The notes under the pieces: generated by a model
Databases searched by the model: none
Seen by the model: the letters and a program-made list of their open reading frames with translations, nothing else
Told to the model about the DNA's origin: nothing
Program-made: the position numbers and the translations under genes
In this document: positions 1 to 11,780 of the stretch, in pieces
How positions within the stretch are numbered: position 1 is the stretch's first letter
Layout: each line of letters begins with the position of its first letter
Origin: Terriglobia bacterium
GTDB lineage: Bacteria; Acidobacteriota; Terriglobia; UBA7540
Assembly (NCBI GenBank): GCA_030041095.1
Contig: JASHON010000106.1
Coordinates: forward strand, 1-64,000
DNA length: 64,000 nt
Reading direction: 5' to 3'

Positions 1-249
1 AAGCGGGCTCAACGCCTGGCCAAGAAACAGAGCCGCACCATGAGCGAGCTTTTCCGGGAGGGCCTGCGTCGCCTGGAGCAAGACGAACAGCAAAAGCCAC
101 TTGGCGAACTCGCGGGCGTTCTCCGGCTCATCCGGCAATCGGCCAGAAATGCGGGTCTCGATACGATGACGCCGGGTGAGATCGATGCCGAAGTTCAGGC
201 GGCCCGCCGGGAGCGCATAGCCAAGCTAGGATCATCCAGGAGAGGCTGA
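1..249 (+). CDS. Ribbon-helix-helix antitoxin, 5' end outside the window
   Basis: The frame is open from base 1, so the gene starts upstream of the window; the ATG at 40 is probably internal. The first visible residues (KRAQRLAKKQSRTMSELFRE) match the helix pair of MetJ/Arc/CopG ribbon-helix-helix proteins, with the usual SELFREGL-like second helix. The charged C-terminal part (about 50 residues) would be the toxin-binding tail. The stop lies 10 bp before a PIN-domain gene, the standard antitoxin-toxin order, so I infer autoregulation by DNA binding and neutralisation of the PIN ribonuclease. Family assignment rests on the fold pattern and the neighbour; the missing N-terminal strand cannot be checked here. 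Confidence 0.75.
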   Translation, partial: KRAQRLAKKQSRTMSELFREGLRRLEQDEQQKPLGELAGVLRLIRQSARNAGLDTMTPGEIDAEVQAARRERIAKLGSSRRG

Positions 250-259
250 TCCCACCCGA

Positions 260-682
260 ATGCCCAAAATTGTGCTAGACACGAATGTGCTCATTTCAGC
301 CCTCCTCACCACGCGCGGCGCCCAGGCCGCCGTGCTTGATTGTGTAGCGGAGAATAAAGCGCAATGGTGCGTTTCGCCGGCCGTACTCGCCGAATACGAA
401 GAGGTACTTCGCAGACCTAAGTTCTTGGGCATCCCTCGAGAGTACATTCATGCGCTCCTCGTGCTCGCCGCCCGCGCCAATCTCGTGAGACCCGATATCA
501 CACTCGCTGTTTCCCCAGACGAGACTGATAACCGGTTTCTTGAGTGCGCGGAGGCGGCAAATGCCGACTACCTCGTGACGGGCAACATCAGGCATTTTCC
601 GAAGCGGCATGGAAAGACCGAAGTAGTCACGCCCCGGCAATTTCTGGTAGTGGTGAGGGACCAGGCGGAGCAGGAAGGCTAA
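260..682 (+). CDS. PIN-domain ribonuclease toxin (VapC/PilT-like, COG1569 type)
   Basis: A 140-residue PIN-domain protein. It opens with the PIN strand and first acidic residue (IVLDTNVLISALL). A central acidic residue lies in AEYEEVLRRPKF, and the late acidic cluster SPDETDNRFLECA is followed by ADYLVTGN. These are the Mg-binding positions of the fold. In the usual family the toxin cleaves RNA, often tRNA, when released from its antitoxin. It follows the ribbon-helix-helix gene by 10 bp with no good ribosome-binding site, which suggests translational coupling. Length is normal for the putative-toxin PIN family, and there is no sign of damage. Confidence 0.88.
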   Translation: MPKIVLDTNVLISALLTTRGAQAAVLDCVAENKAQWCVSPAVLAEYEEVLRRPKFLGIPREYIHALLVLAARANLVRPDITLAVSPDETDNRFLECAEAANADYLVTGNIRHFPKRHGKTEVVTPRQFLVVVRDQAEQEG

Positions 683-1073
683 GACCCGGTTCAAGCACCT
701 CTTGAGCCTGGCCAGTCCGCCTGGAGTTCGTGGACAAGCGGTGATTTTATACTCGTGCGCTGGATCGGCGACAGGAAAGGCATCGAGCAGAGGACCAAAA
801 CCTGGGACAAAGCCAGGCCGCGGCTCCATTGCGTTTCGTAGGATTGGAACGACGGGAATATGAGTTTTGGGGATTTGCTCGACGCTCACCGCGACAATCC
901 CGACGAGGCCCATGCGCCCGGCCCCATTTCTCGGTTGTACAAGATTTCGTGGGAGACTTCGGACCACGAGTAGTCCGGCACATCCCACGGAAATCCAGGA
1001 CCACCCGGAATTCCTTTCCCGCTTCGAATGTGTTAACTTACGAGGTACTTCCAGGGCCGAGGGGACATTCTGA
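683..1073. other. Spacer between toxin and helicase; possible gene remnant at 740-973
   Basis: No complete gene is visible. One plus-strand frame is open from well before 740 to a TAG at 971-973, interrupted only by a TAG at about 839. Its last part, from ATG 860, encodes 37 residues (MSFGDLLDAHRDNPDEAHAP...) with ordinary protein composition. It could be the tail of a decayed gene, but I recognise no family. The helicase ATG at 1074 is preceded by a GAGGGG-type ribosome-binding site. Confidence 0.3.
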
Positions 1074-4000
1074 ATGCCCAGAATTTTTGACAACATTGCG
1101 CTCTCCCTCCTTCCGGCGCTGTCTGAAACCCTCAAAATTTCCGAACGTGCTGACTTCTGTGTCGGCTATTTCAACCTCCGGGGCTGGCGCCAGATTGACC
1201 ATCTCATCGAAGACTGGCCCGGAGGCGACGGCGCTTGCTGCCGGGTGATTGTGGGGATGCAGAGGCTGCCCCAGGACGAGCTTCGAGCACGGTTCAGTCT
1301 AGTTTCTGGCCCAGACGGCATCGACGCACAGGCAGCGCAACGGCTCAAGAGGGCAGCCGCACAAGACTTCCGCGCGCAACTCACTATAGGAGCGCCAACC
1401 GACCAGGACGAAAAGGGCCTTCGGCGCTTGAGCGCACAGTTGAAAGCTCGGAAGGTTATCGTCAAGCTGTTCCTGCGACATCCCCTTCACGCGAAGTTAT
1501 ATTTGGCTTACCGCACCGATCCCAACAGCCCCAGCATCGGCTTCGTGGGTAGCAGTAATCTGACCTTCGCTGGCCTCTGCAACCAAGGCGAGCTGAACGT
1601 AGACGTTCTTGACCAGGACGCCTGCGAGAAGCTCCAGCGATGGTTTGAAGGCCAGTGGAACGACACCTGGTGCATCGACATCTCGAAGGAGCTCGCTGAG
1701 ATCATTGATACAAGCTGGGCGCGCGAGGAGTTGATGCCGCCGTTCCACATTTACCTTAAAATGGCCTACCACCTTTCTCAGGAGGCGCGCGCTGGCCTTT
1801 CCGAGTTCACGGTCCCCAGGGACTTCGGCACACAGCTTCTACCGTTTCAGACAGCGGCCGTCAGGATCGCGGCGCACTATCTGAACAAAAGAGGGGGAGT
1901 AGTAATCGGGGACGTGGTGGGCCTCGGCAAAACGATCATGGCGGCGGGCCTGGCCCGCATCTTCCAGGACGAGCCCTACTTCCTTGAGACGCTCATCATT
2001 TGCCCGAAGAACCTCATCCCACTCTGGACGGATTACGTTTACCGATATCGGCTCGCGGCAAGGGTAGTCTCGCTTAGCGCCGTCATCAATGAATTACCAG
2101 AAATGCCGCGCTATCGCGTTGTCCTCATCGATGAGAGCCACAACCTCAGAAACCGCGAGGGTCGCCGGTACAAGGTGATTCAAGAGTACGTCCAAAAGAA
2201 TGGCTCCAAGTGCATCCTGCTATCTGCCACCCCGTACAACAAGACCTATCTCGATCTCTCTTCTCAATTGCAATTATTTGTTTCGGCAGATCAGGATCTT
2301 GGCATCCGCCCAGAGCGGCTCATCAAGGAGCTGGGCGAGACGGAATTCATTCGCCGCCATCAGTGTCCGGTTCGCTCACTCTCCGCATTTGAGAAAAGCC
2401 TGCACCCGGACGATTGGCGTGACCTTATGCGTCTTTATCTTGTCCGCCGCACCCGGTCCTTCATCAAGGACAATTACGCGAAGACCGATCCGGCGAACGG
2501 CCGGAAGTACCTCACCTTTGAGGGTGGCGGCCGGTTCTATTTTCCTGAACGCGTTCCAAAGACAGAGAAGTTCCATTTCGACGAGCACGATCCGGGAGAT
2601 CAGTACGCTCGCCTCTACTCGGACTCCGTCGTAGACGCGGTGAATCATCTCAGGTTGCCGCGCTATGGCCTCGGCAACTACATTAAGCCCACGCCGCACG
2701 AACCGCCCACCGATACAGAGAATAAGGAAATCAGGAAGTTGTCGCGTGCCGGGAACCGGCTGATGGGTTTCTGCCGCACGAACCTCTTCAAGCGACTTGA
2801 GAGTGGAGGCCCGGCGTTCATTCAGTCTCTCGAGCGGCATATTCTGCGCAATTTCATTTTCCTCTACGCCCTCGATAACGACCTACCGCTGCCCATCGGC
2901 TCCCAGGGAGCAGAGTTTCTGGACGCGAAGCTAGGCGATCAGGATCTCGACGACCTATTCAGCAGCGGGGCAGAAGACACGGACGACAATGGCGACGCAA
3001 AAGGCGATGTTGCCGTCTTTATGTCAAGTGAAGTCGAATTCCGCAAACGAGCCACCGAGGCCTATCAACGTTACTCGACCGAGCTCCAAAGTCGGTTCAG
3101 GTGGCTACGCCCATCGCTATTCACCAAGAGCCTCGAGACGGACCTGGGGAATGATGCCAGGGCTCTCTTGCAGGTGATGAAGACCTGCGGGTCCTGGAAC
3201 GCGAGCAAGGATGCCAAGCTTGCCGCGCTCCAGGCACTTCTGACGAAGAAGTATCCGGACCAGAAGGTGCTCGTCTTCACCCAATTTGCAGACACTGTCT
3301 ACTATCTCGCACGCGAACTGAAGGCACGCGGCGTCGACCGGCTCGAGGGTGTCACCGGCGATACTGAGAATCCCACCGCTTACGCCTACCGCTTTAGCCC
3401 GGAATCGAGCGCGAAGCGCGACCCGGTGAAGCCAGAGGATGAACTGAGAGTTCTTGTAACCACTGATGTGCTCAGTGAAGGCCAGAATCTTCAGGATTGC
3501 TCAGTAATCGTGAATTACGACCTGCCTTGGGCCATCATCCGGTTGATCCAAAGGGCCGGCCGCGTGGATCGGATCGGTCAGAAGTCCGACCGGATTTACT
3601 GCCACTCCTTCCTCCCTGCCGAGGGCATCGAGCGGATTATCCGGCTTCGCACCCGCGTTCGCCAGCGTCTGCTCGAAAACGCTGAGGTCGTCGGCAGTGA
3701 CGAGTCCTTCTTCGAGGACGACATGGGTGAAGGGCCCATCCTTGATCTGTACCACGAGAAATCAGGGATTCTGGAAGAATCAGACAACGAGGTTGACCTC
3801 GCCTCATATGCCTACCAGATCTGGAAGAACGCTACCGATGACGACCCGAAGCTGGCGAAGCTGGTCTCGGAACTGCCCAACGTGGTGTTTTCAAGCAAGC
3901 CTCACACGCCTGCGCCTGACCAGCCCCAAGGCGTGCTCGTCTACATGCGAACGGCGGAAGGTAGCGACTCGCTGGCGTGGATCAATCGTGAGGGCGCGAG

Positions 4001-4454
4001 TGTGACGGAGTCCCAGCTTACAATCCTTCGCGCCGCAGAATGCAAAGCAACGACGCCGGCGGCACCGCGCCTTTCGGAGCATCACGAACTCGTGGAGAAG
4101 GGCGTTCGATACATGGTCAAAGAGGAGAAATCGGCGGGCGGACAGTTAGGACGGCCGTCCGGTGCGCGTTTTCGCGTCTACGAGCGGCTGAAGGCTCATC
4201 TCAACCGCGTGCGGGGCACGCTCTTTGCTACCCAGGACTTGGCAAAGGCGGTAGACCAGATTTATAAGTATCCCCTGCGCTCAGCGGCCGCCGACGCTCT
4301 CAACCGCCAACTGCGAACCGGAGCCAACGATCAGCAGCTCGCCGATTTCGTGGTGTCCCTGTGGGAACAGGACCGCCTCTGCTCGGTTGAGGAAGAGGCT
4401 GAAGCCCAGGAGCCGCAAATCATCTGCTCGCTAGGACTGAATTCTCAAACATGA
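1074..4454 (+). CDS. Phospholipase-D-like domain plus SNF2-type helicase (defence cassette)
   Basis: A 1126-residue fusion. Residues ~1-220 form a phospholipase-D-like domain with HAKLYLAY near residue 139 and GSSNLTFAGL near 158, the split HxK/GSxN signature of PLD-like nucleases. A SNF2/DEAD-like motor follows: Walker A VVGLGKT (Lys ~286), Walker B DESHNLRN (~353), SATPYNKT (~383), and in the second RecA lobe TTDVLSEGQNLQ (~795) and QRAGRVDRIGQ (~827). The C-terminal ~250 residues are not assigned. The adenine methylase follows by 56 bp. PLD-helicase plus methylase pairs belong to defence systems such as DISARM relatives and the predicted helicase-methylase-ATPase (Hma) type. All motor motifs look intact; the function in this cassette is inferred. 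Confidence 0.88.
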   Translation: MPRIFDNIALSLLPALSETLKISERADFCVGYFNLRGWRQIDHLIEDWPGGDGACCRVIVGMQRLPQDELRARFSLVSGPDGIDAQAAQRLKRAAAQDFRAQLTIGAPTDQDEKGLRRLSAQLKARKVIVKLFLRHPLHAKLYLAYRTDPNSPSIGFVGSSNLTFAGLCNQGELNVDVLDQDACEKLQRWFEGQWNDTWCIDISKELAEIIDTSWAREELMPPFHIYLKMAYHLSQEARAGLSEFTVPRDFGTQLLPFQTAAVRIAAHYLNKRGGVVIGDVVGLGKTIMAAGLARIFQDEPYFLETLIICPKNLIPLWTDYVYRYRLAARVVSLSAVINELPEMPRYRVVLIDESHNLRNREGRRYKVIQEYVQKNGSKCILLSATPYNKTYLDLSSQLQLFVSADQDLGIRPERLIKELGETEFIRRHQCPVRSLSAFEKSLHPDDWRDLMRLYLVRRTRSFIKDNYAKTDPANGRKYLTFEGGGRFYFPERVPKTEKFHFDEHDPGDQYARLYSDSVVDAVNHLRLPRYGLGNYIKPTPHEPPTDTENKEIRKLSRAGNRLMGFCRTNLFKRLESGGPAFIQSLERHILRNFIFLYALDNDLPLPIGSQGAEFLDAKLGDQDLDDLFSSGAEDTDDNGDAKGDVAVFMSSEVEFRKRATEAYQRYSTELQSRFRWLRPSLFTKSLETDLGNDARALLQVMKTCGSWNASKDAKLAALQALLTKKYPDQKVLVFTQFADTVYYLARELKARGVDRLEGVTGDTENPTAYAYRFSPESSAKRDPVKPEDELRVLVTTDVLSEGQNLQDCSVIVNYDLPWAIIRLIQRAGRVDRIGQKSDRIYCHSFLPAEGIERIIRLRTRVRQRLLENAEVVGSDESFFEDDMGEGPILDLYHEKSGILEESDNEVDLASYAYQIWKNATDDDPKLAKLVSELPNVVFSSKPHTPAPDQPQGVLVYMRTAEGSDSLAWINREGASVTESQLTILRAAECKATTPAAPRLSEHHELVEKGVRYMVKEEKSAGGQLGRPSGARFRVYERLKAHLNRVRGTLFATQDLAKAVDQIYKYPLRSAAADALNRQLRTGANDQQLADFVVSLWEQDRLCSVEEEAEAQEPQIICSLGLNSQT

Positions 4455-4510
4455 CTTCCTTCGCCTCTCTGGGGGAGAAGGGACGGCAATGAGGGGGTAA
4501 GTTCGCACCG

Positions 4511-7500
4511 ATGCCAGCCACTTATCAGAATATTCAAAAGAGGCTCCAAGCCTTCGATTTCACCGGGCTGTTCACCCAGGAACTGATGTGGAATTTCCAC
4601 CGAACCGGCGACTTACACATACCGGTCGAGGGAGTGACCTACGCGCTGAGACCGGTTGCGGAGCGTGGCATGGCAGTTTTTGAATGTGTCCCGCCCACAG
4701 ACGCCGAATTCCCGAAATATACCACGCGGCGCAAAATCGATACCCAGGTCTCAAGGACGGCACGCGAGCACATTATCATTTTTCACGATAACGCCAACAC
4801 CGTCCAGGTCTGGCAATGGGTGAAGCGCGAAGCCGGCAAGCCTTCGGCCTGCCGCGAGCAGTTGTTCTACAGGGGCCAGTCCGGTGACGCGCTCACTCAA
4901 AAGATTCAGGGCATCGCGTTCGAATTAGAGGGTCAGCCCACCATCCTCGAAACAGTAGCGAAGGTCGGTGCTGCGTTCGATGTTGAAAAGGTCACGAAAC
5001 GCTTCTATGACCAATTCAAGAAGGAGCATGACGCCTTCCTGAAGTTCACCAAGGGGATTCCTGACGAGAAGCTGCAACGCTGGTACGCCTCCGTAATGCT
5101 GAATCGCCTCATGTTCATCTACTTCATCCAGAAAAAGGGCTTTCTCGCCGGTGACCTGCATTACCTGACCAACAAACTGGGCGAGTCCAAACAGCGAGGC
5201 GAGGACAGATTCTATCGGGACTTTCTCTGCCGGTTGTTCTTTGAAGGCTTCGCCAAGCGCGAAGACCAGCGCGGCTCCGAAACCAACCGCCTGCTTGGGC
5301 GTGTTCCCTACTTGAACGGCGGCCTCTTCTTGAGGCACCAGATTGAGGAGCTGCATGAAAAGGACATCGAAATCCCGGATAGGGCTTTCGATCGCATCTT
5401 CGATTTCTTCGAGCAGTACGACTGGCACCTGGATGACCGCCCGAAAAAAGGCGGTAATGAAATTAACCCGGACGTTATTGGTTACGTCTTCGAGAAATAC
5501 ATCAACCAGAAAGAAATGGGAGCTTACTACACCAAGGAGGACATCACCGGCTACATCAGCCAGAGCACCATCATTCCGGCCATCTTTGACATGGCGCGCA
5601 AAGACATGAGGCCTGATCTCCGCCGGATCGCCTTCGAAGGCGAACAGACCGTTTGGCGGCTTCTCCAAGCCGATCCCGACCGCTACATTTACGCCGCCAT
5701 GCTCAACGGGATGGACAAGGAGCTTCCTGACTGCATCGCAGCCGGCTTGAACGACGTCAGCAAGCGAGGCGAGTGGAACAAGCCCGCCGGTGCAGAGTAC
5801 GCGTTACCCACGGAAACATGGCGAGAAGTCGTCGCCCGGCGTAGCCGTTGCCAGGAGATTCGCGAGAAGCTCAGGGCAGGCGAAGTTCGTTCCATCAATG
5901 ACGCCATTAGGTACAATCTCGACATCCGTCGCTTCGCTGAAGACGCAATCCTAAACGAAGAGCACAGTCCAGAACTGATCTGGTCGATTTACAAAGCACT
6001 CCGCAACATCTCCGTTCTCGACCCTGCTTGCGGTTCCGGGGCATTCTTGTTCGCCGCGCTAAACGTTCTTGCGCCGCTCTATGACGCCTGCGTCGTTCGC
6101 ATGGAAGCGTTCCTTGACGACCTCATGCGTTCCGGCGAGCAACGTCGCCCAGAGAAGATGAGCCATTTCCGTGGCGAGATCGAACGAGTTCGCGACAAAA
6201 GGCTTCATCCCAGCCCGCGCTACTTCATCCTGAAGTCAATCATCCTGAACAACCTTTACGGCGTGGACATCATGGAGGAGGCGACGGAAATCTGTAAGCT
6301 GCGCCTCTTCCTCAAGCTGGTCGCCCAAGTAACCCCAGGTGAGAAAATCGAGCCGTTGCCGGACATCGATTTCAATATACGCGCGGGCAATACCCTAGTT
6401 GGGTTCGTTACTCGGGCCGAGGTCAAACAAGCAATCGGTGGCAAGCTCGACTTTGACAACACACTCGAAGCCATCGAAGAGAAAGCTGCGTTAGTCGAAA
6501 AGGCATTCGGTAGGTTCCGTCAGATTCAGATGGATTTTCGAATGGACCCGGCGGAGTTCTCAGAGGCGAAGTCCGAACTTAGCGCACGTCTCGATAAAAT
6601 GCGGCAGGAACTGGACGGCTACCTGGCCGGAGAGTATGGCGTCAGGCAACAAGACAAGAATGGGCTCCAACGGTGGCAGCGGTCTCATCAACCCTTTCAT
6701 TGGTTTGTTGAGTTCTATGCGATCATGGCCAGAGGTGGATTCGACGCCATCATCGGCAATCCGCCATACGTCGAGATTTCGGATCTCGGTCAAGCCTACT
6801 CAATCAGGAATCTCCAATTGACCTCCACAGGCAACCTATACTCTCTTTTCCTTGAGCGATTCACCGCGCTTCTCGGTGGCGAAGGCCGTGTCGGAATCAT
6901 TGTGCCCGTCAGCTCGGTTTCAACCCCACGGATGTGTGCCCTGATGGGCCTGATTAGCAGAGCGTATTCACCCTTGCTGATCAGCAACTTCGCAGTCCGT
7001 CCAGGCAAGCTGTTCGTGGGTGCCGACATGAATCTGACAATCATGGTGGGGCGAAAGTCAAGCTCCGGCAATGGGGACGGCGACCTATTTACAACCGCGT
7101 ACAACAGGTGGACCACTGAGTGCAGACCATTTCTTTTCCCAACGCTCAGTTATCACCGCAGCGCATTCGACCGACAATCGAGCAGCATACCGAAAGTCGG
7201 ATCACCCATAGCGGTGACTATCATCGACCGACTCAGGACTCACCCGAACCTCGCCAGTTACCGGGCGTCCAACTCGGGAGACGTCGTTTACTACCACAGC
7301 GGCGGAAGGTACTTTAGGAAGTGTCTGCCCCAGCAACTTTCTAACGAATACAAGGAACTGAGAGTTCAAAAGGGTCTCGGCAAAGCTGCAATCGCGGTCC
7401 TCTCGTCATCTCTGTATTACCTCTACTGGATAGTGATATCCGACTGCTATCACGTCACCAAGCGTGACGTCGATTTCTTTCCGATGGCAAGCACACTGAA

Positions 7501-7750
7501 GGACGACAAAGAGGTCGGACGACTCGCAGATGCCTTGGTTGAGGACCTGTGGAAGAATGCGGAGACGCGGAGACGAGCGCGGGCGGATGGCACGATACAA
7601 AATGAGACAAATTTTAAAGTGGGGAAGTCAAGGGGCTTAATCGACTGCATTGACACGGTGCTGGCCAATCACTACAAACTTACCCCCGAACAACTCGATT
7701 TTATCACCAGCTATGATGTCAAGTTTCGCACGACCGACATCGAGCCGTAG
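4511..7750 (+). CDS. Eco57I/PglX-like adenine-specific DNA methyltransferase
   Basis: A 1079-residue class I SAM-dependent N6-adenine methylase. The SAM-binding motif DPACGSGAFLF lies near residue 504 and the catalytic NPPYV near 750, in the order of gamma-class amino-methylases. Between them is NNLYGVDIMEEATEICKLRL, the usual Eco57I-family core. The N-terminal ~330 residues, including EKYINQKEMGAYYTKEDITGY just before the core, resemble large single-chain methylases such as PglX. I see no clear PD-(D/E)XK nuclease motif, so this is probably a methylase only. It sits 56 bp behind the PLD-helicase and 24 bp before a zinc-ribbon gene, clearly in one transcription unit. It probably marks self DNA for the cassette. 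The frame is intact. Confidence 0.9.
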   Translation: MPATYQNIQKRLQAFDFTGLFTQELMWNFHRTGDLHIPVEGVTYALRPVAERGMAVFECVPPTDAEFPKYTTRRKIDTQVSRTAREHIIIFHDNANTVQVWQWVKREAGKPSACREQLFYRGQSGDALTQKIQGIAFELEGQPTILETVAKVGAAFDVEKVTKRFYDQFKKEHDAFLKFTKGIPDEKLQRWYASVMLNRLMFIYFIQKKGFLAGDLHYLTNKLGESKQRGEDRFYRDFLCRLFFEGFAKREDQRGSETNRLLGRVPYLNGGLFLRHQIEELHEKDIEIPDRAFDRIFDFFEQYDWHLDDRPKKGGNEINPDVIGYVFEKYINQKEMGAYYTKEDITGYISQSTIIPAIFDMARKDMRPDLRRIAFEGEQTVWRLLQADPDRYIYAAMLNGMDKELPDCIAAGLNDVSKRGEWNKPAGAEYALPTETWREVVARRSRCQEIREKLRAGEVRSINDAIRYNLDIRRFAEDAILNEEHSPELIWSIYKALRNISVLDPACGSGAFLFAALNVLAPLYDACVVRMEAFLDDLMRSGEQRRPEKMSHFRGEIERVRDKRLHPSPRYFILKSIILNNLYGVDIMEEATEICKLRLFLKLVAQVTPGEKIEPLPDIDFNIRAGNTLVGFVTRAEVKQAIGGKLDFDNTLEAIEEKAALVEKAFGRFRQIQMDFRMDPAEFSEAKSELSARLDKMRQELDGYLAGEYGVRQQDKNGLQRWQRSHQPFHWFVEFYAIMARGGFDAIIGNPPYVEISDLGQAYSIRNLQLTSTGNLYSLFLERFTALLGGEGRVGIIVPVSSVSTPRMCALMGLISRAYSPLLISNFAVRPGKLFVGADMNLTIMVGRKSSSGNGDGDLFTTAYNRWTTECRPFLFPTLSYHRSAFDRQSSSIPKVGSPIAVTIIDRLRTHPNLASYRASNSGDVVYYHSGGRYFRKCLPQQLSNEYKELRVQKGLGKAAIAVLSSSLYYLYWIVISDCYHVTKRDVDFFPMASTLKDDKEVGRLADALVEDLWKNAETRRRARADGTIQNETNFKVGKSRGLIDCIDTVLANHYKLTPEQLDFITSYDVKFRTTDIEP

Positions 7751-7774
7751 ACGCCCTATCTTGAGGAGACGACC

Positions 7775-7969
7775 ATGCCTGTGAAGCTACCGGAGCCGCA
7801 TTCTAAGAAGGAGGCTGGGAAGGAGACCATTCCTCTGTGGAGATGTCCCCACTGCCATGAGCTTAAAAGGATCGAGCAGTTCGGGTTCCGCTTCCGCCGA
7901 GACGCCTACAACAAGGTGAACATGTGGCAGAAGCAGTCGTGGTGCAAAGTATGCAGAGGCGAGAGCTAG
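7775..7969 (+). CDS. Small zinc-ribbon protein in the defence cassette
   Basis: A 64-residue basic protein with two cysteine pairs, CPHCHELKRIEQFGF and WCKVCRGE, spaced as a four-cysteine zinc ribbon. A GAGGAG ribosome-binding site lies about 7 nt before the ATG, and the gene begins 24 bp after the methylase stop, so it is a real translated unit. Its end overlaps the longest version of the next gene. Similar short zinc fingers occur near HNH or methylase genes, but I do not recognise a named family. A DNA- or protein-binding accessory role is only inferred from the motif and the context. Confidence 0.7.
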   Translation: MPVKLPEPHSKKEAGKETIPLWRCPHCHELKRIEQFGFRFRRDAYNKVNMWQKQSWCKVCRGES

Positions 7970-8616
7970 ACCGGTCACGCCGGCACATCGTAGCTGCTGG
8001 CACCCAAGCCGGCGGCGCTCAACGAAGCGTGCTTGTCGCGAGAACACTGCGTATCCTAGGTAACGCGGCTGACGCGCTGGGCGATGACCAATTGCTTGGC
8101 TGGAGGAAACTTGCCCTGATCTGCTCGCAAAAATGCCCCGGCGCCGTGATTCTGAAGATATACGATTTTGCCCGGCTGGTTCGCGGATCAGGCGTGGCCA
8201 TCGTGAGCGGCTTCCATTCACCCACTGAGAAAGATTGCCTGTCGATTTTGCTTCGCGGCCCAGGTCCCATCACCATTGTCCAGGGCCACCGACTAAGCAC
8301 GTCACGCCTGCCGATGAAGTGGCAGCAGGCCATCGACGCCGGACGCCTGCTTCTGCTTTCTCCTTTCAGCGATAAATATAAGCGAGTCACCGCGGAACTC
8401 GCCGCCGCGCGCAATCGCTTCGTCGCGGCGATCTCCGACGAGGTGCTGATCCCCTACGCCGCGCCGGGCAGCAAGACAGAAGCCCTGGCTCTCGACCTGC
8501 TCAATTCCGGCAAGCACGTGTACACTTTCAGCGACCGCCCGTGCCCGTTGCTCTCCGCCGGCGCCCAACTCGTCGCCCCCGAATTCTTCTCAAAGAACCA
8601 AATCTCGCCGCTCTGA
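7924..8616 (+). CDS. DprA/Smf-like Rossmann-fold protein
   Basis: The conserved part resembles stand-alone DprA-like proteins: KLALICSQKCPGAVILKIYD, then GVAIVSGFHSPTEKDCL (the SGxxS-like nucleotide or ssDNA loop), then GRLLLLSPFSD, and finally PGSKTEALALDLLNSGKHVY. DprA loads RecA on single-stranded DNA; orphan relatives are frequent in defence islands with undefined roles. The longest open start is GTG 7924, with AAGGTG 5 nt upstream, overlapping the zinc-ribbon gene by 46 bp. Family similarity only begins around GTG 8029, so a start there (195 residues) is a real alternative. The frame is complete. Membership of the same operon as the methylase is inferred from spacing. Confidence 0.72.
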   Translation: MAEAVVVQSMQRRELDRSRRHIVAAGTQAGGAQRSVLVARTLRILGNAADALGDDQLLGWRKLALICSQKCPGAVILKIYDFARLVRGSGVAIVSGFHSPTEKDCLSILLRGPGPITIVQGHRLSTSRLPMKWQQAIDAGRLLLLSPFSDKYKRVTAELAAARNRFVAAISDEVLIPYAAPGSKTEALALDLLNSGKHVYTFSDRPCPLLSAGAQLVAPEFFSKNQISPL

Positions 8617-8658
8617 ACTTCTCTCCACTTCTCCATCTGCGGCCGTACCGTGGATCGG

Positions 8659-9123
8659 CTAAAACTCTCCCTCCTCCTCACGAATTTTCTGTTCCCGGAA
8701 GCGACGATCGAGTTCTCGTACTACATCCTTAGCAAATGCGCGGAACTCCGTGTCAGGGTCCTGAGCCCATTCTTTTGCAACCGCTAAGTCTCTCGCGATC
8801 TTATTTGAATAAGGACCCTGCCAGAATCCCGTGACCATATTTGCGTACAGCTCATTCCAAACAGCGCTGTTGCCCCTGAATGAGAGCACCAGTGCTCGCG
8901 CGCGTGAATGCCGATTGCGTGGGTCAGGTGCGATGAGGTGTGCCACGATCCAGGGTCCACGAGGCTCGTTCGCCTTTGCCCAGGAGATCAGATGTTCGAC
9001 TGGGATCAGCTCCCCGTACCATCTCCACAGTGCTGTCAGAAGTGCCGATGACACTTCTCCTTCGGACAATATGGCTTCGCCAATTGCGTTCCACGCACCG
9101 GTGGGGTCCGCTTCCGTAGCCAT
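8659..9123 (-). pseudogene. C-terminal fragment of a HEAT-like (possibly defence) protein
   Basis: A 154-residue minus-strand frame convergent with the DprA-like gene. Coding-like sequence continues past the apparent ATG (LVELERRQALQ) until a stop at 9157-9159, so the frame is not naturally bounded and the 5' part is missing. The tail (FRAFAKDVVRELDRRFREQK, ending EEEGEF) and the preceding WAQDPDTE and WNELYANMV segments resemble the helical C-terminal ends of large STAND-like or uncharacterised HEAT-repeat proteins; that comparison is from memory. It abuts an opposite-strand ATPase fragment at a probable rearrangement junction. I interpret it as a stranded gene end rather than a functional gene. 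Confidence 0.45.
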
Positions 9124-9648
9124 TTGCAGAGCTTGGCGGCGTTCGAGTTCGACGAGCTACTCAAGAAGACAACGGCCCTCCTACTGACCGCCGGAATTAA
9201 GGATCTGATGCTCGCCACTAGTCGGTTCATTCTCGAGAAGGTTTATTCGGCCATGTTGATGGGCGGCGTTACTAAACGGCTACGGGTGATGGCCATTATC
9301 GATGAGGCGCACAAGCTTTGCGGAGAGGGAACCGTTACGGCGCTCATCAAGGAAGCCCGGAAGTACGCAATGGGCGTCATCTTATCGCCTCAGGAGACTC
9401 GCGATTTTCATCCCTCCGTCTTCGCCAACACAGGCACACTCGTCGGGCTGGCCCGGGAGGAAGAGGACGCTAACGTTATGTCCAGGTATATGGGTTTGAC
9501 AGACAAAACGGAACGAACGCAAGCAAAGGGACTGCTCCTCAACCAGGCTAATGGCCATGCACTGATTCGGTCACAGCATTTTCTGCCATACGCGCAGGTA
9601 AAGATACTCTCATTCGAGGACAAAATTAGGCGCAACGGCAAAAGTTGA
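9124..9648 (+). pseudogene. C-terminal stump of a HerA/VirB4-like (DUF87) ATPase
   Basis: A 174-residue fragment starting at TTG. It contains the second half of a HerA/FtsK-superfamily ATPase: Walker B VMAIIDEAHKLCG, then IKEARKYAMGVILSPQETRDF (the sensor/Q-like region), SVFANTGTLVGL, and a C-terminal wrap with FLPYAQVKI. Walker A and the whole N-terminal half are absent from the window, so it cannot hydrolyse ATP as it stands. Homology begins about residue 6 (FEFDELLKK). Upstream the frame stays open but runs antisense to the neighbouring minus-strand fragment. An ATPase would complete the helicase-methylase-ATPase set seen upstream, so this is probably the decayed third component. Confidence 0.75.
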
Positions 9649-9748
9649 CACGACGCATCTGACAGAAAACTCGCCGTGCTGTCCTTGGCGGCTTAAAGTC
9701 CGGAAATTCGCCACATGCAACGCGCGAGGGCCGTCGTTTGTGCCTCCA

Positions 9749-10978
9749 TTAGCCGGTGACGGTTCCATCTTCTTTCAGGTAGGGCAAAAAATCTGAAGGA
9801 AACTCATTTTTCAGCATCCGACGCACAATGCACTTTGTCAGTGGCAGCCATCGGTTGACTTCCTCAGTGTGCAGCAGCTCGTCAGACGAAAGCGTAAGTT
9901 CCTCTCCTTCCAGCAGGCCTAGCGCGTGGCCTATCCGATCCCGTAAGGGCCTCAGAGTAGTAGCACTCACCTCGGCGACTGGCTTGCCCCGCGCCTCCGG
10001 CTGAAATATCGCGTCAAGTGACATAGCGTCCCACTCACGCTGGACGTGGAAAAGTGCCCGGAGCCATGGGACAAACTGACTCGGATCCGAGGGAATCACC
10101 TCGTCTGGGCGGCTGAATGTCTTGCCATCCCGGACGGCTTGTCGCTCGAGCCGTTTCCGCCGAGCACTTATGGCTTCGGCAATTTTGAAGAAGCAAAGGA
10201 ACTGATAAACGGCAGTGCTGTTCAACGCCTCCCGATACAAGCTGGCACAACCCCGGAATTCCTTATCGAGTAGCGCAAATGGCCTTATTGAGAGCGGTGC
10301 CTCCCGAAACGCGGTCACAATACTCATCTGCGTGTTTCCAGTCCTCAGTTCCTTGCTCTCGATCTGGAACACATGCAACGGAACGTCCAACTCGGCGGAC
10401 CACTTACTCAGCGATGTTGCCAGGGCACGATAGCATTTGCGCACACTGTCCATCAGGCTCTCGGCGCGAAATGGTTTCGATTTGATCTTACCTAGATACC
10501 CGCGCTTGTTCGGAAATCCGATAAATTCAAAATGCCCGTCTTCCGTGTTCCCGGCGATCAGTATGCAGTCGGCATTAGCATCGCCCGGCGGAGAAAACGC
10601 GGGTTTGGAGATAGCTAGGTGCGAATCGCCCTCCAACCCCTCAGCGAAGGAGTGCTGGTTCTCAGGAATTGGGCTGAAGCCGGGCCGGTTCAATACGAAC
10701 ACGCATTCATAGTCGCCAGGCAATCCCTTCGGAGCACCCAGATTCCTTGGGTCGCCGGGGTCTCGGTACTGGTTCACCGCCAAAAGATGCTGCGCTTGTC
10801 CCCCCAGCCCCATGACCTTAACATTGGCGCGCAGACTTGGATTCGAGGCTGCTGCTCTCGCCGTCCACGAGTCACGCGTTGGCTGCCGAGCGGCCGTTCT
10901 CGGCTGCCCGCCGTGGCAGTGCTTGTATTTCCTTCCGCTCCCACAGGGACACGGATCGTTCCTGCCGACCTTCCTCAT
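9749..10978 (-). CDS. SEC-C motif protein of unknown function
   Basis: About 409 residues with an N-terminal SEC-C zinc motif ([18 protein letters not shown]), as at the C-terminus of SecA and in many uncharacterised proteins. ATG 10978 is chosen because it places [12 protein letters not shown] at the very start, the usual arrangement; an ATG at 10990 adds four residues. The remainder (for example [20 protein letters not shown] and [18 protein letters not shown]) is not a family I recognise and has no membrane segments. SEC-C proteins of this size are common in mobile and defence islands. It is transcribed toward the ATPase stump and is separated from the tRNA by about 0.7 kb. Confidence 0.75.
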
Positions 10979-11476
10979 ATTCCCGAGCATAGCAGGCAGT
11001 CAGACCTTCGTCGGGCAGGTCCTCTGCATTTTACGGCTGACGGTCAACCGCGAACCTGAAACGCACACGGAAAACAATCCCGCCGCATGCTTTACCGTAG
11101 CAGCTATTCCCGAGCAAAAAAGCCAAAACTATTCCCACTGCGGGCAGCGCTTCCGATTCGTTCCCAGTCTGTCTCCCGGTTTAGCGAGCTCGGCCAGGTC
11201 CCCTTTTCCGCGCCTGTTCTCGCGGGCAGCGCTTCGGGGTCTTCCCTGCGCCCAGCGGACGCATGCTCGACTTCTCCCGCGCTGCGGGACCCCTTCGGGT
11301 TGCGGCGCCTCCAAAACAATCTCACGGCCAAACGATGGTTCATAAATGGCCATCGGATGGTTCAAACCATGCCGCCAGATTCTTTTGGTCCCTCCGCAAA
11401 AGCCGCCTTGGGAGCAGGACCCTCTCGCTTTTGGGTGCCCCGCGCGAAGCGGGAGCAGAAAACGGAGGATTCAAAA
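10979..11476. other. Gene-free stretch with short repeats
   Basis: No convincing gene. Open frames here have low-complexity, GC-biased translations and no ribosome-binding sites. The stretch contains a 14-bp direct repeat (gcgggcagcgcttc at 11140-11153 and 11222-11235) and a palindrome atggttcaaaccat at 11357-11370. It lies between the SEC-C gene start and the ssb pseudogene, so part of it should hold the SEC-C promoter, which I cannot pinpoint. Confidence 0.4.
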
Positions 11477-11686: not shown

Positions 11687-11780
11687 TGGCGGAGAGGGTG
11701 GGATTCGAACCCACGTGCCCGCTTTTGGCAGGCAAGACGCTTTCGAGGCGCCCCCGTTATGACCACTTCGGTACCTCTCC
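11687..11780 (-). tRNA. tRNA-Ser (anticodon CGA)
   Basis: The minus strand folds as a class II tRNA. The acceptor stem GGAGAGG/CCTCTCC has discriminator G and an encoded CCA (11687-11689). The D-arm is CCG...CGG. The anticodon stem GGCGC/GCGTC surrounds the loop CTCGAAA, giving anticodon CGA. A long variable arm follows (CTTGCCTGCC...GGGCA), then the T-arm with GGTTCGAATCC. The long variable arm and G discriminator are serine identity features. It decodes UCG. Its 3' end faces the accessory island, the usual orientation for integrase target tRNAs. Confidence 0.95.

Follow-up and report, generated by a model that had tools for sequence, protein, structure and literature searches.

A DprA-fold protein closing helicase/methylase operons in distant bacteria suggests an undescribed defence system

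Introduction

DprA-like proteins also occur outside competence, where their role is unclear, and the helicase-bound examples are known mainly as antitoxins. RqlI binds and restrains the helicase RqlH (PMC4670107). The DprA homologues of shosTA, syrTA and rqlHI are named as antitoxins, and protection from T7 and lambda is provided by a pair of DprA and PRTase (PMC9122126). ShosA binds DNA, counters ShosT and probably promotes recombination (PMC12593503). An HKD-Swi2/Snf2 helicase and an N6-methylase are combined with DUF499 and DUF3780 in the type-2 system of the BREX-related, DUF499-centred group (PMC12839542), and a SNF2 helicase is combined with a PglX-like methylase in DISARM class 1 and ARMADA (PMC12458937).

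The locus described here shares features with each of these systems. Like RqlHI and PsyrTA, it contains a helicase and a DprA-like protein, and the PsyrA profile partially matches the latter. However, the partner in RqlHI/PsyrTA is a RecQ-PRTase, whereas here it is an HKD-SNF2 helicase with a methylase, and the DprA-like protein is half as long (221 versus 462 aa). The ShosTA antitoxin has the same DprA fold, but no ShosT PRTase partner is found among the nine neighbouring ORFs. The nearest published description is the BREX-related type-2 system, whose helicase and methylase are both present here, with a DprA-like gene instead of DUF499. DUF499 has no match in the genome that carries the locus (95.5% complete), a Pfam scan of the neighbouring genes finds no DUF3780, and the available text of that paper contains none of the words 'SLOG', 'Smf' or 'DprA' (PMC12839542). 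With regard to DISARM class 1, the helicase reaches 127 bits against the NCBIfam DrmD model, which has a cut-off of 610. The nine ORFs over positions 40–10990 include no drmA/drmB or YprA/DUF1998, apart from matches of the helicase's own motor. Membership in the DUF499/BREX-related, DISARM or ARMADA systems is rejected, given the missing DUF499, the low DrmD score and the lack of drmA/drmB among these nine ORFs.

The plasmid pSYSX of Synechocystis PCC 6803 carries the same helicase (52% identity) and methylase (44% identity), but a VapC-type pair lies between them, DUF2513 follows, and there is no DprA-like gene. A VapC-type pair is likewise located between helicase and methylase on a PCC 73109 plasmid. 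The initial annotation had regarded the pairing of a DprA-like protein with this helicase and methylase as possibly new, and no account of it was found in the literature, supplements and subscription papers aside; an earlier mention is possible.

Results and discussion

Organization of the operon

The operon occupies the left part of the window, the 64,000-nucleotide stretch of a Terriglobia bacterium contig that was analysed, and contains four genes:

1074–4454, forward strand: PLD (HKD)-SNF2 helicase, 1126 aa, a putative translocase-nuclease effector (Pfam and catalytic motifs)
4511–7750, forward strand: Eco57I/PglX-like m6A methylase, 1079 aa (Pfam, PADLOC and motifs)
7775–7969, forward strand: four-cysteine zinc-ribbon-like protein, 64 aa, lineage-specific cargo between the methylase and the DprA-like gene (ORF)
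7951–8616, forward strand: DprA/SLOG-fold protein, 221 aa from the ATG at 7951, last gene of the operon (profiles, model fold and operon position in relatives)

The coordinates given in the initial annotation, including the 24-bp gap between the methylase stop (7750) and the 64-residue ORF and the overlap of this ORF with the DprA-like frame, are correct. GAGGAG is located just 5´ of the zinc-ribbon ATG, and the protein contains CPHC and CKVC, which provide its four cysteines. The DprA-like frame is open from a GTG at 7924 to 8616 (230 aa), and the ATG at 7951, which yields 221 aa, fits the family N-terminus better. The two genes overlap in different frames by 46 bp (GTG 7924) or 19 bp (ATG 7951). 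No clear Shine-Dalgarno sequence lies ahead of either start, which would agree with translational coupling of the DprA-like gene to the upstream ORF.

Helicase and methylase

The helicase matches Pfam PLDc_2, RE_NgoFVII, SNF2-rel_dom and Helicase_C, and contains the H-x-K...GSSN motif at residue 139, DESH at 353 and SNF2 motif VI at 826. The methylase matches Pfam Eco57I (5e-24) and, over its full length, the PADLOC profile for type IIG restriction-modification (RM) methylases (REase_MTase_IIG, PDLC03628; 934 bits), with the motifs DPACGSGAF at 504 and NPPY at 750. The model of its N-terminal domain, a candidate nuclease (pLDDT 81), has a best structural match of Z 6.1 and no clear match; restriction-endonuclease-like folds (9y1l, SPARDA, TSEN) appear among the weak matches only. 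Two methylases are placed on pSYSX (PMC6604393), and the other one has a bipartite motif (PMC7296061). By elimination, therefore, the 44% identical pSYSX relative is probably M.Ssp6803IV (GA-m6A-GGC). The conserved neighbourhood described below suggests that annotation tools which label the methylase on its own as type IIG RM overlook a system of several genes.

Fold and family of the DprA-like protein

The label 'DprA/Smf-like' of the initial annotation holds as a fold assignment, with matches in Pfam, NCBIfam and PADLOC. The window protein stays below the cut-offs of Pfam DNA_processg_A (25.6 bits; cut-off 29.6) and NCBIfam dprA (30.9 bits; cut-off 191), and five of six relatives pass the Pfam cut-off, L019 being below it. 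PADLOC PsyrA matches the window protein partially (E 2e-11, 128 of 398 profile positions) and all six relatives (2e-23 to 8e-5). An AlphaFold2 model based on 60 family members (pLDDT 87.8, pTM 0.85) can be superimposed on Streptococcus pneumoniae DprA (3uqz) with a Z of 19.6 and an rmsd of 3.5 over 202 aligned residues, which places it in the DprA Rossmann fold. Helicobacter pylori HpDprA (Z 18.9) and ShosA (Z 17.2) follow. Full-length DprA has extra domains beyond the Rossmann core, and the 221 residues of the window protein form the core alone.

LOG and Moco-carrier proteins rank lower among the structural matches (Z 9–13). Since SLOG is a ligand domain in Thoeris ThsA (PMC11204291), these matches could point to a SLOG-like nucleotide binder, through which the system would be tied to signals of infection or to nucleotide levels. 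Such a role is highly improbable, because DprA and ShosA (Z 16–20) match far better than LOG and no signal synthase stood out in the shared neighbour clusters.

The genome has an ordinary DprA as well, encoded separately on contig C82. The family profile gives only 12.5 bits to this housekeeping protein, versus about 56 bits to two RecQ-linked DprAs, one on an E. coli plasmid and one in an Acidobacteriota genome, the RecQ link of the latter being read by eye. The profile scores favour a closer relationship to the PsyrA/RqlI type than to housekeeping DprA, and together with the linkage described below they rule out that the gene is a mere second housekeeping DprA. On the E. coli plasmid (L157:229-10308), hsdS and hsdR of a type I RM locus flank the RecQ helicase and DprA genes. 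In the Acidobacteriota genome (L011, G235:C2), an RqlI/PsyrA-like gene appears, by eye, to follow the end of a RecQ helicase, and the same genome also has a short DprA-like gene.

The profile distance and the reduced size also bear on a role in repair, in which the DprA-like protein would act as DprA does for RecA and load recombination proteins where the nuclease has damaged self DNA. The DprA fold and the reported DNA binding and probable recombination activity of ShosA (PMC12593503) speak for it. With the Rossmann core alone and a profile far from the genome's own DprA, however, we consider this role quite unlikely.

CSxKCPG takes the place of the basic GSR motif of DprA and GGFHSPMEKEC that of the SGxAxGID motif, while the RN motif is retained in all 60 rows of the family alignment. 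This alignment leaves out 10 relatives without the regular expression C..PG, as well as L072 and L091, and conservation at positions 58–64 is overstated because rows without C..PG were omitted. A further family motif, CPAR (55–58 of 60 rows per position), is replaced by VQGH at residues 110–113 of the window protein, which may be a diverged or decaying copy.

Linkage to the helicase and methylase across genomes

The DprA-like family is found at 1e-6 in 9 of 297 Acidobacteriota genomes, the genome of the window included. Two of the eight other loci have helicase and methylase upstream (L017 and L019); in L017, genes for a HipA-like kinase and a DUF3037 protein separate the methylase from the DprA-like gene. 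L021 is a broken remnant of all three genes, L018 retains a methylase tail, and L014, L015, L016 and L020 show no helicase or methylase on the stretch examined. A cargo gene before the DprA-like gene of L016 (9806-10657, reverse strand) encodes, by eye, a macro-domain (DarG-like) protein, and a methylase is present on another contig of that genome.

Genome contigs were then scanned with the DprA-like alignment alone. The pattern occurs in 412 stretches, 374 of which encode a relative, and 80 loci were kept; L026 and L097, which are contigs of the seeds L016 and L015, are counted in the 80 but do not enter the alignments. For relatives, ORFs were called greedily as the longest frames and are not gene predictions. 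Of the 80 loci, 46 have a helicase and/or methylase upstream in the same orientation, as do 45 of the 61 with at least 2 kb upstream and 34 of the 45 with at least 8 kb; both genes are present in 29 of these 45. The pair is never downstream or on the opposite strand in the 80 loci, except for a weak match to another helicase downstream in L058. By their record titles, the linked loci come from Nitrospirota, desulfobacterial and other deltaproteobacterial groups, Chloroflexota, Poribacteria, Planctomycetota, Cyanobacteria, Verrucomicrobia (Opitutia), Acidobacteria (Bryobacterales), Latescibacterota, Zixiibacteriota, Gammaproteobacteria and others. The helicase family is rare, with 12 of 297 Acidobacteriota genomes, and the linkage is therefore far from chance. 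The suggestion that the DprA-like gene belongs with the helicase/methylase pair is thus supported well beyond this genome. The whole trio is present in three of five IMG/VR matches, which indicates that it may travel on mobile DNA.

Ten loci have methylase and DprA-like match ends less than 150 bp apart. Six of these DprA-like genes start 3 nt past the methylase stop, three have possible starts in a 4-nt (ATGA) overlap, and in the tenth locus the start is ambiguous. In the remaining linked loci, cargo of up to 8 kb separates the DprA-like gene from the methylase. Among nine sampled cargo genes, seven have Pfam matches, which include Schlafen/AlbA_2, AAA_21/AAA_15 ATPase, HNH, PIN, DUF3644 and an M78 peptidase after an HTH gene. 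Nucleotidyltransferase-HEPN, DUF3800-like and OLD-like genes were read by eye, and toxin-antitoxin (TA) genes are among the cargo kinds.

The three genes also vary together. In 17 complete trios, the window included, the pairwise distances correlate at 0.77 (methylase/DprA-like), 0.70 (helicase/DprA-like) and 0.79 (helicase/methylase); none of 2000 permutations is as high for any of them, and shared ancestry is still contained in these values. The DprA-like gene is under purifying selection in one lineage, with a dN/dS of 0.15–0.22 in all six pairs of four Desulfobacterales copies. On the helicase tree, the presence of the DprA-like gene needs 4 changes versus 10.8 when shuffled (0 of 500), a result of little weight as the rows were chosen by different routes.

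A defence-island rider without any tie to the helicase could also occupy this place, where cargo genes are common. Eleven of the 45 loci with at least 8 kb upstream have neither helicase nor methylase. L160 (10192-12578), for example, holds a full DprA-like gene, followed some 1.5 kb further downstream by a partial second copy, among other genes that resemble defence genes. We nevertheless regard a mere passenger as very unlikely, given the linkage in 34 of 45 loci, always downstream and on the same strand, the 3-nt or ATGA spacing and the co-variation with both partners.

Pairs without the DprA-like gene

The association is not obligatory. A DprA-like gene is linked in 4 of the 12 Acidobacteriota helicase genomes (G000, G051, G217 and the remnant G021), five have none despite at least 3.7 kb downstream (G170, G197, G116, G096 and G123), and the other three are truncated at contig ends or split (G112, G052 and G235). 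The DprA-like family is absent by tblastn from all 24 plasmid records that carry the helicase, and the family profile finds none in the eight of them that were read. A search of plasmids for the family itself returns a single E. coli DprA, a distant one with 25% identity. Conversely, G328, from the window's own family, has a DprA-like gene without the pair on a 12.7-kb contig. The pair can thus live without the DprA-like gene, as in RqlHI, where the helicase is often found without it (PMC4670107). The helicases on plasmids and in Acidobacteriota that lack a DprA-like gene indicate that the helicase is not generally toxic without the DprA-like protein. The check that the initial annotation had set on its proposal thus comes out both ways: the DprA-like gene and the pair occur together beyond this genome, but 11 of the 45 DprA-like loci with at least 8 kb upstream are without the pair, and several pairs are without a DprA-like gene.

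The zinc-ribbon gene

The initial annotation had joined the zinc-ribbon and DprA-like proteins into one accessory module, which the distribution of the zinc-ribbon gene contradicts. One good relative was found, in the Acidobacteriota genome G084; it is full length, 39% identical and retains all four cysteines and the C-terminal WxKQSWCxxCRGxS. It directly follows a DpnI-family endonuclease gene (Pfam DpnI 4e-56; L143:9488-10544, reverse strand). A two-row profile detects the family in 2 of 297 Acidobacteriota genomes, one of them that of the window; in a search at E 0.01, 6 of 101 genomes matched (own included), four of which are weak (9e-4 to 6e-3) and were not counted. By tblastn at E 1e-4, the gene is present in none of the 80 DprA-like loci and none of the eight Acidobacteriota loci. 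IMG/VR and phages give no match, plasmids one weak match only (E 0.08), and the PDB contains no relative. Since a full-length homologue of 39% identity keeps all four cysteines, the gene is, on sequence grounds, real beyond chance though rare, and is seen twice behind a restriction gene. Its rarity and its absence from DprA-like loci rule it out as a conserved partner of the DprA-like protein, and it looks like a local add-on or passenger in the cargo slot. 'Accessory' therefore suits the zinc-ribbon protein and undersells the DprA-like protein, which follows the methylase in every linked locus.

A possible guard of the helicase

The recurrence of a DprA-like gene as the last gene of the helicase/methylase operon in many distant bacteria suggests an undescribed defence system. 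Our preferred reading, to which we give somewhat less than an even chance, is a widespread three-gene restriction-like system in which the DprA-like protein would be the guard subunit of the helicase-nuclease and the zinc-ribbon protein a passenger. The HKD (PLD)-SNF2 helicase would act as a putative translocating nuclease, and the PglX/type IIG-like m6A methylase would mark self DNA. On methylated or intact self DNA, the DprA-like protein may hold the helicase or the exposed DNA safe; it would give way or hand over ssDNA once the helicase encounters invader DNA that is unmodified or replicating. This role is modelled on RqlI, which restrains RqlH, on ShosA, which counters ShosT, and on the RecQ and DprA genes inside the RM locus of the E. 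coli plasmid. Against it, the best-described DprA-like antitoxins pair with PRTase-bearing toxins rather than with HKD-SNF2 proteins. The helicases without a DprA-like gene, the 11 of 45 loci without the pair and the loss of CPAR in the window copy also count against a guard.

The initial annotation had proposed that the DprA-like protein could sense or process single-stranded phage or plasmid DNA. In this direction, the protein would be an activator of the helicase-nuclease that responds to ssDNA from phage replication or plasmid entry. The solved ssDNA-binding relative HpDprA, the invariant RN motif and the position of the last gene, which suits a sensor subunit, are consistent with an activator. 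We consider it unlikely, as CSxKCPG replaces the basic GSR motif, helicase/methylase pairs occur without the DprA-like gene, and the DprA-like proteins of the precedents, RqlI and ShosA, counter their partners.

Returning to the guard, we hold with a shade more caution, as a possibility only, that the trio constitutes a distinct, undescribed three-component anti-invader system present in roughly a dozen phyla. Its DprA-fold subunit, with a motif set of its own (CSxKCPG, GFHSPxE, CPAR and RN), would control both the HKD-SNF2 translocase-nuclease and the PglX-like methylase, and the space that separates the methylase from the DprA-like gene would be a slot for TA and effector cargo. If true, such a system would unite the principle of RM/BREX with that of helicase-DprA toxin-antitoxin pairs. 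The link of the DprA-like gene to a nuclease-helicase and a self-marking methylase would offer a clean genetic test of whether a DprA fold restrains or triggers DNA-targeting immune helicases.

Surroundings of the operon

At the right edge of the island, a tRNA-Ser(CGA) (11687–11780, reverse strand) is a possible integration site; the window contains no second copy of the tRNA end. A SEC-C motif protein with a MauJ-like domain is encoded at 9752–10990 (reverse strand). The short HerA/MAD8-like ATPase fragment at 9124–9645 (forward strand; PADLOC mad8 4e-10) starts with TTG and looks like the remainder of a defence gene that has been truncated. A small ParD-like ORF and a PIN_3 toxin-like gene closely precede the helicase, at 40–682 (forward strand).
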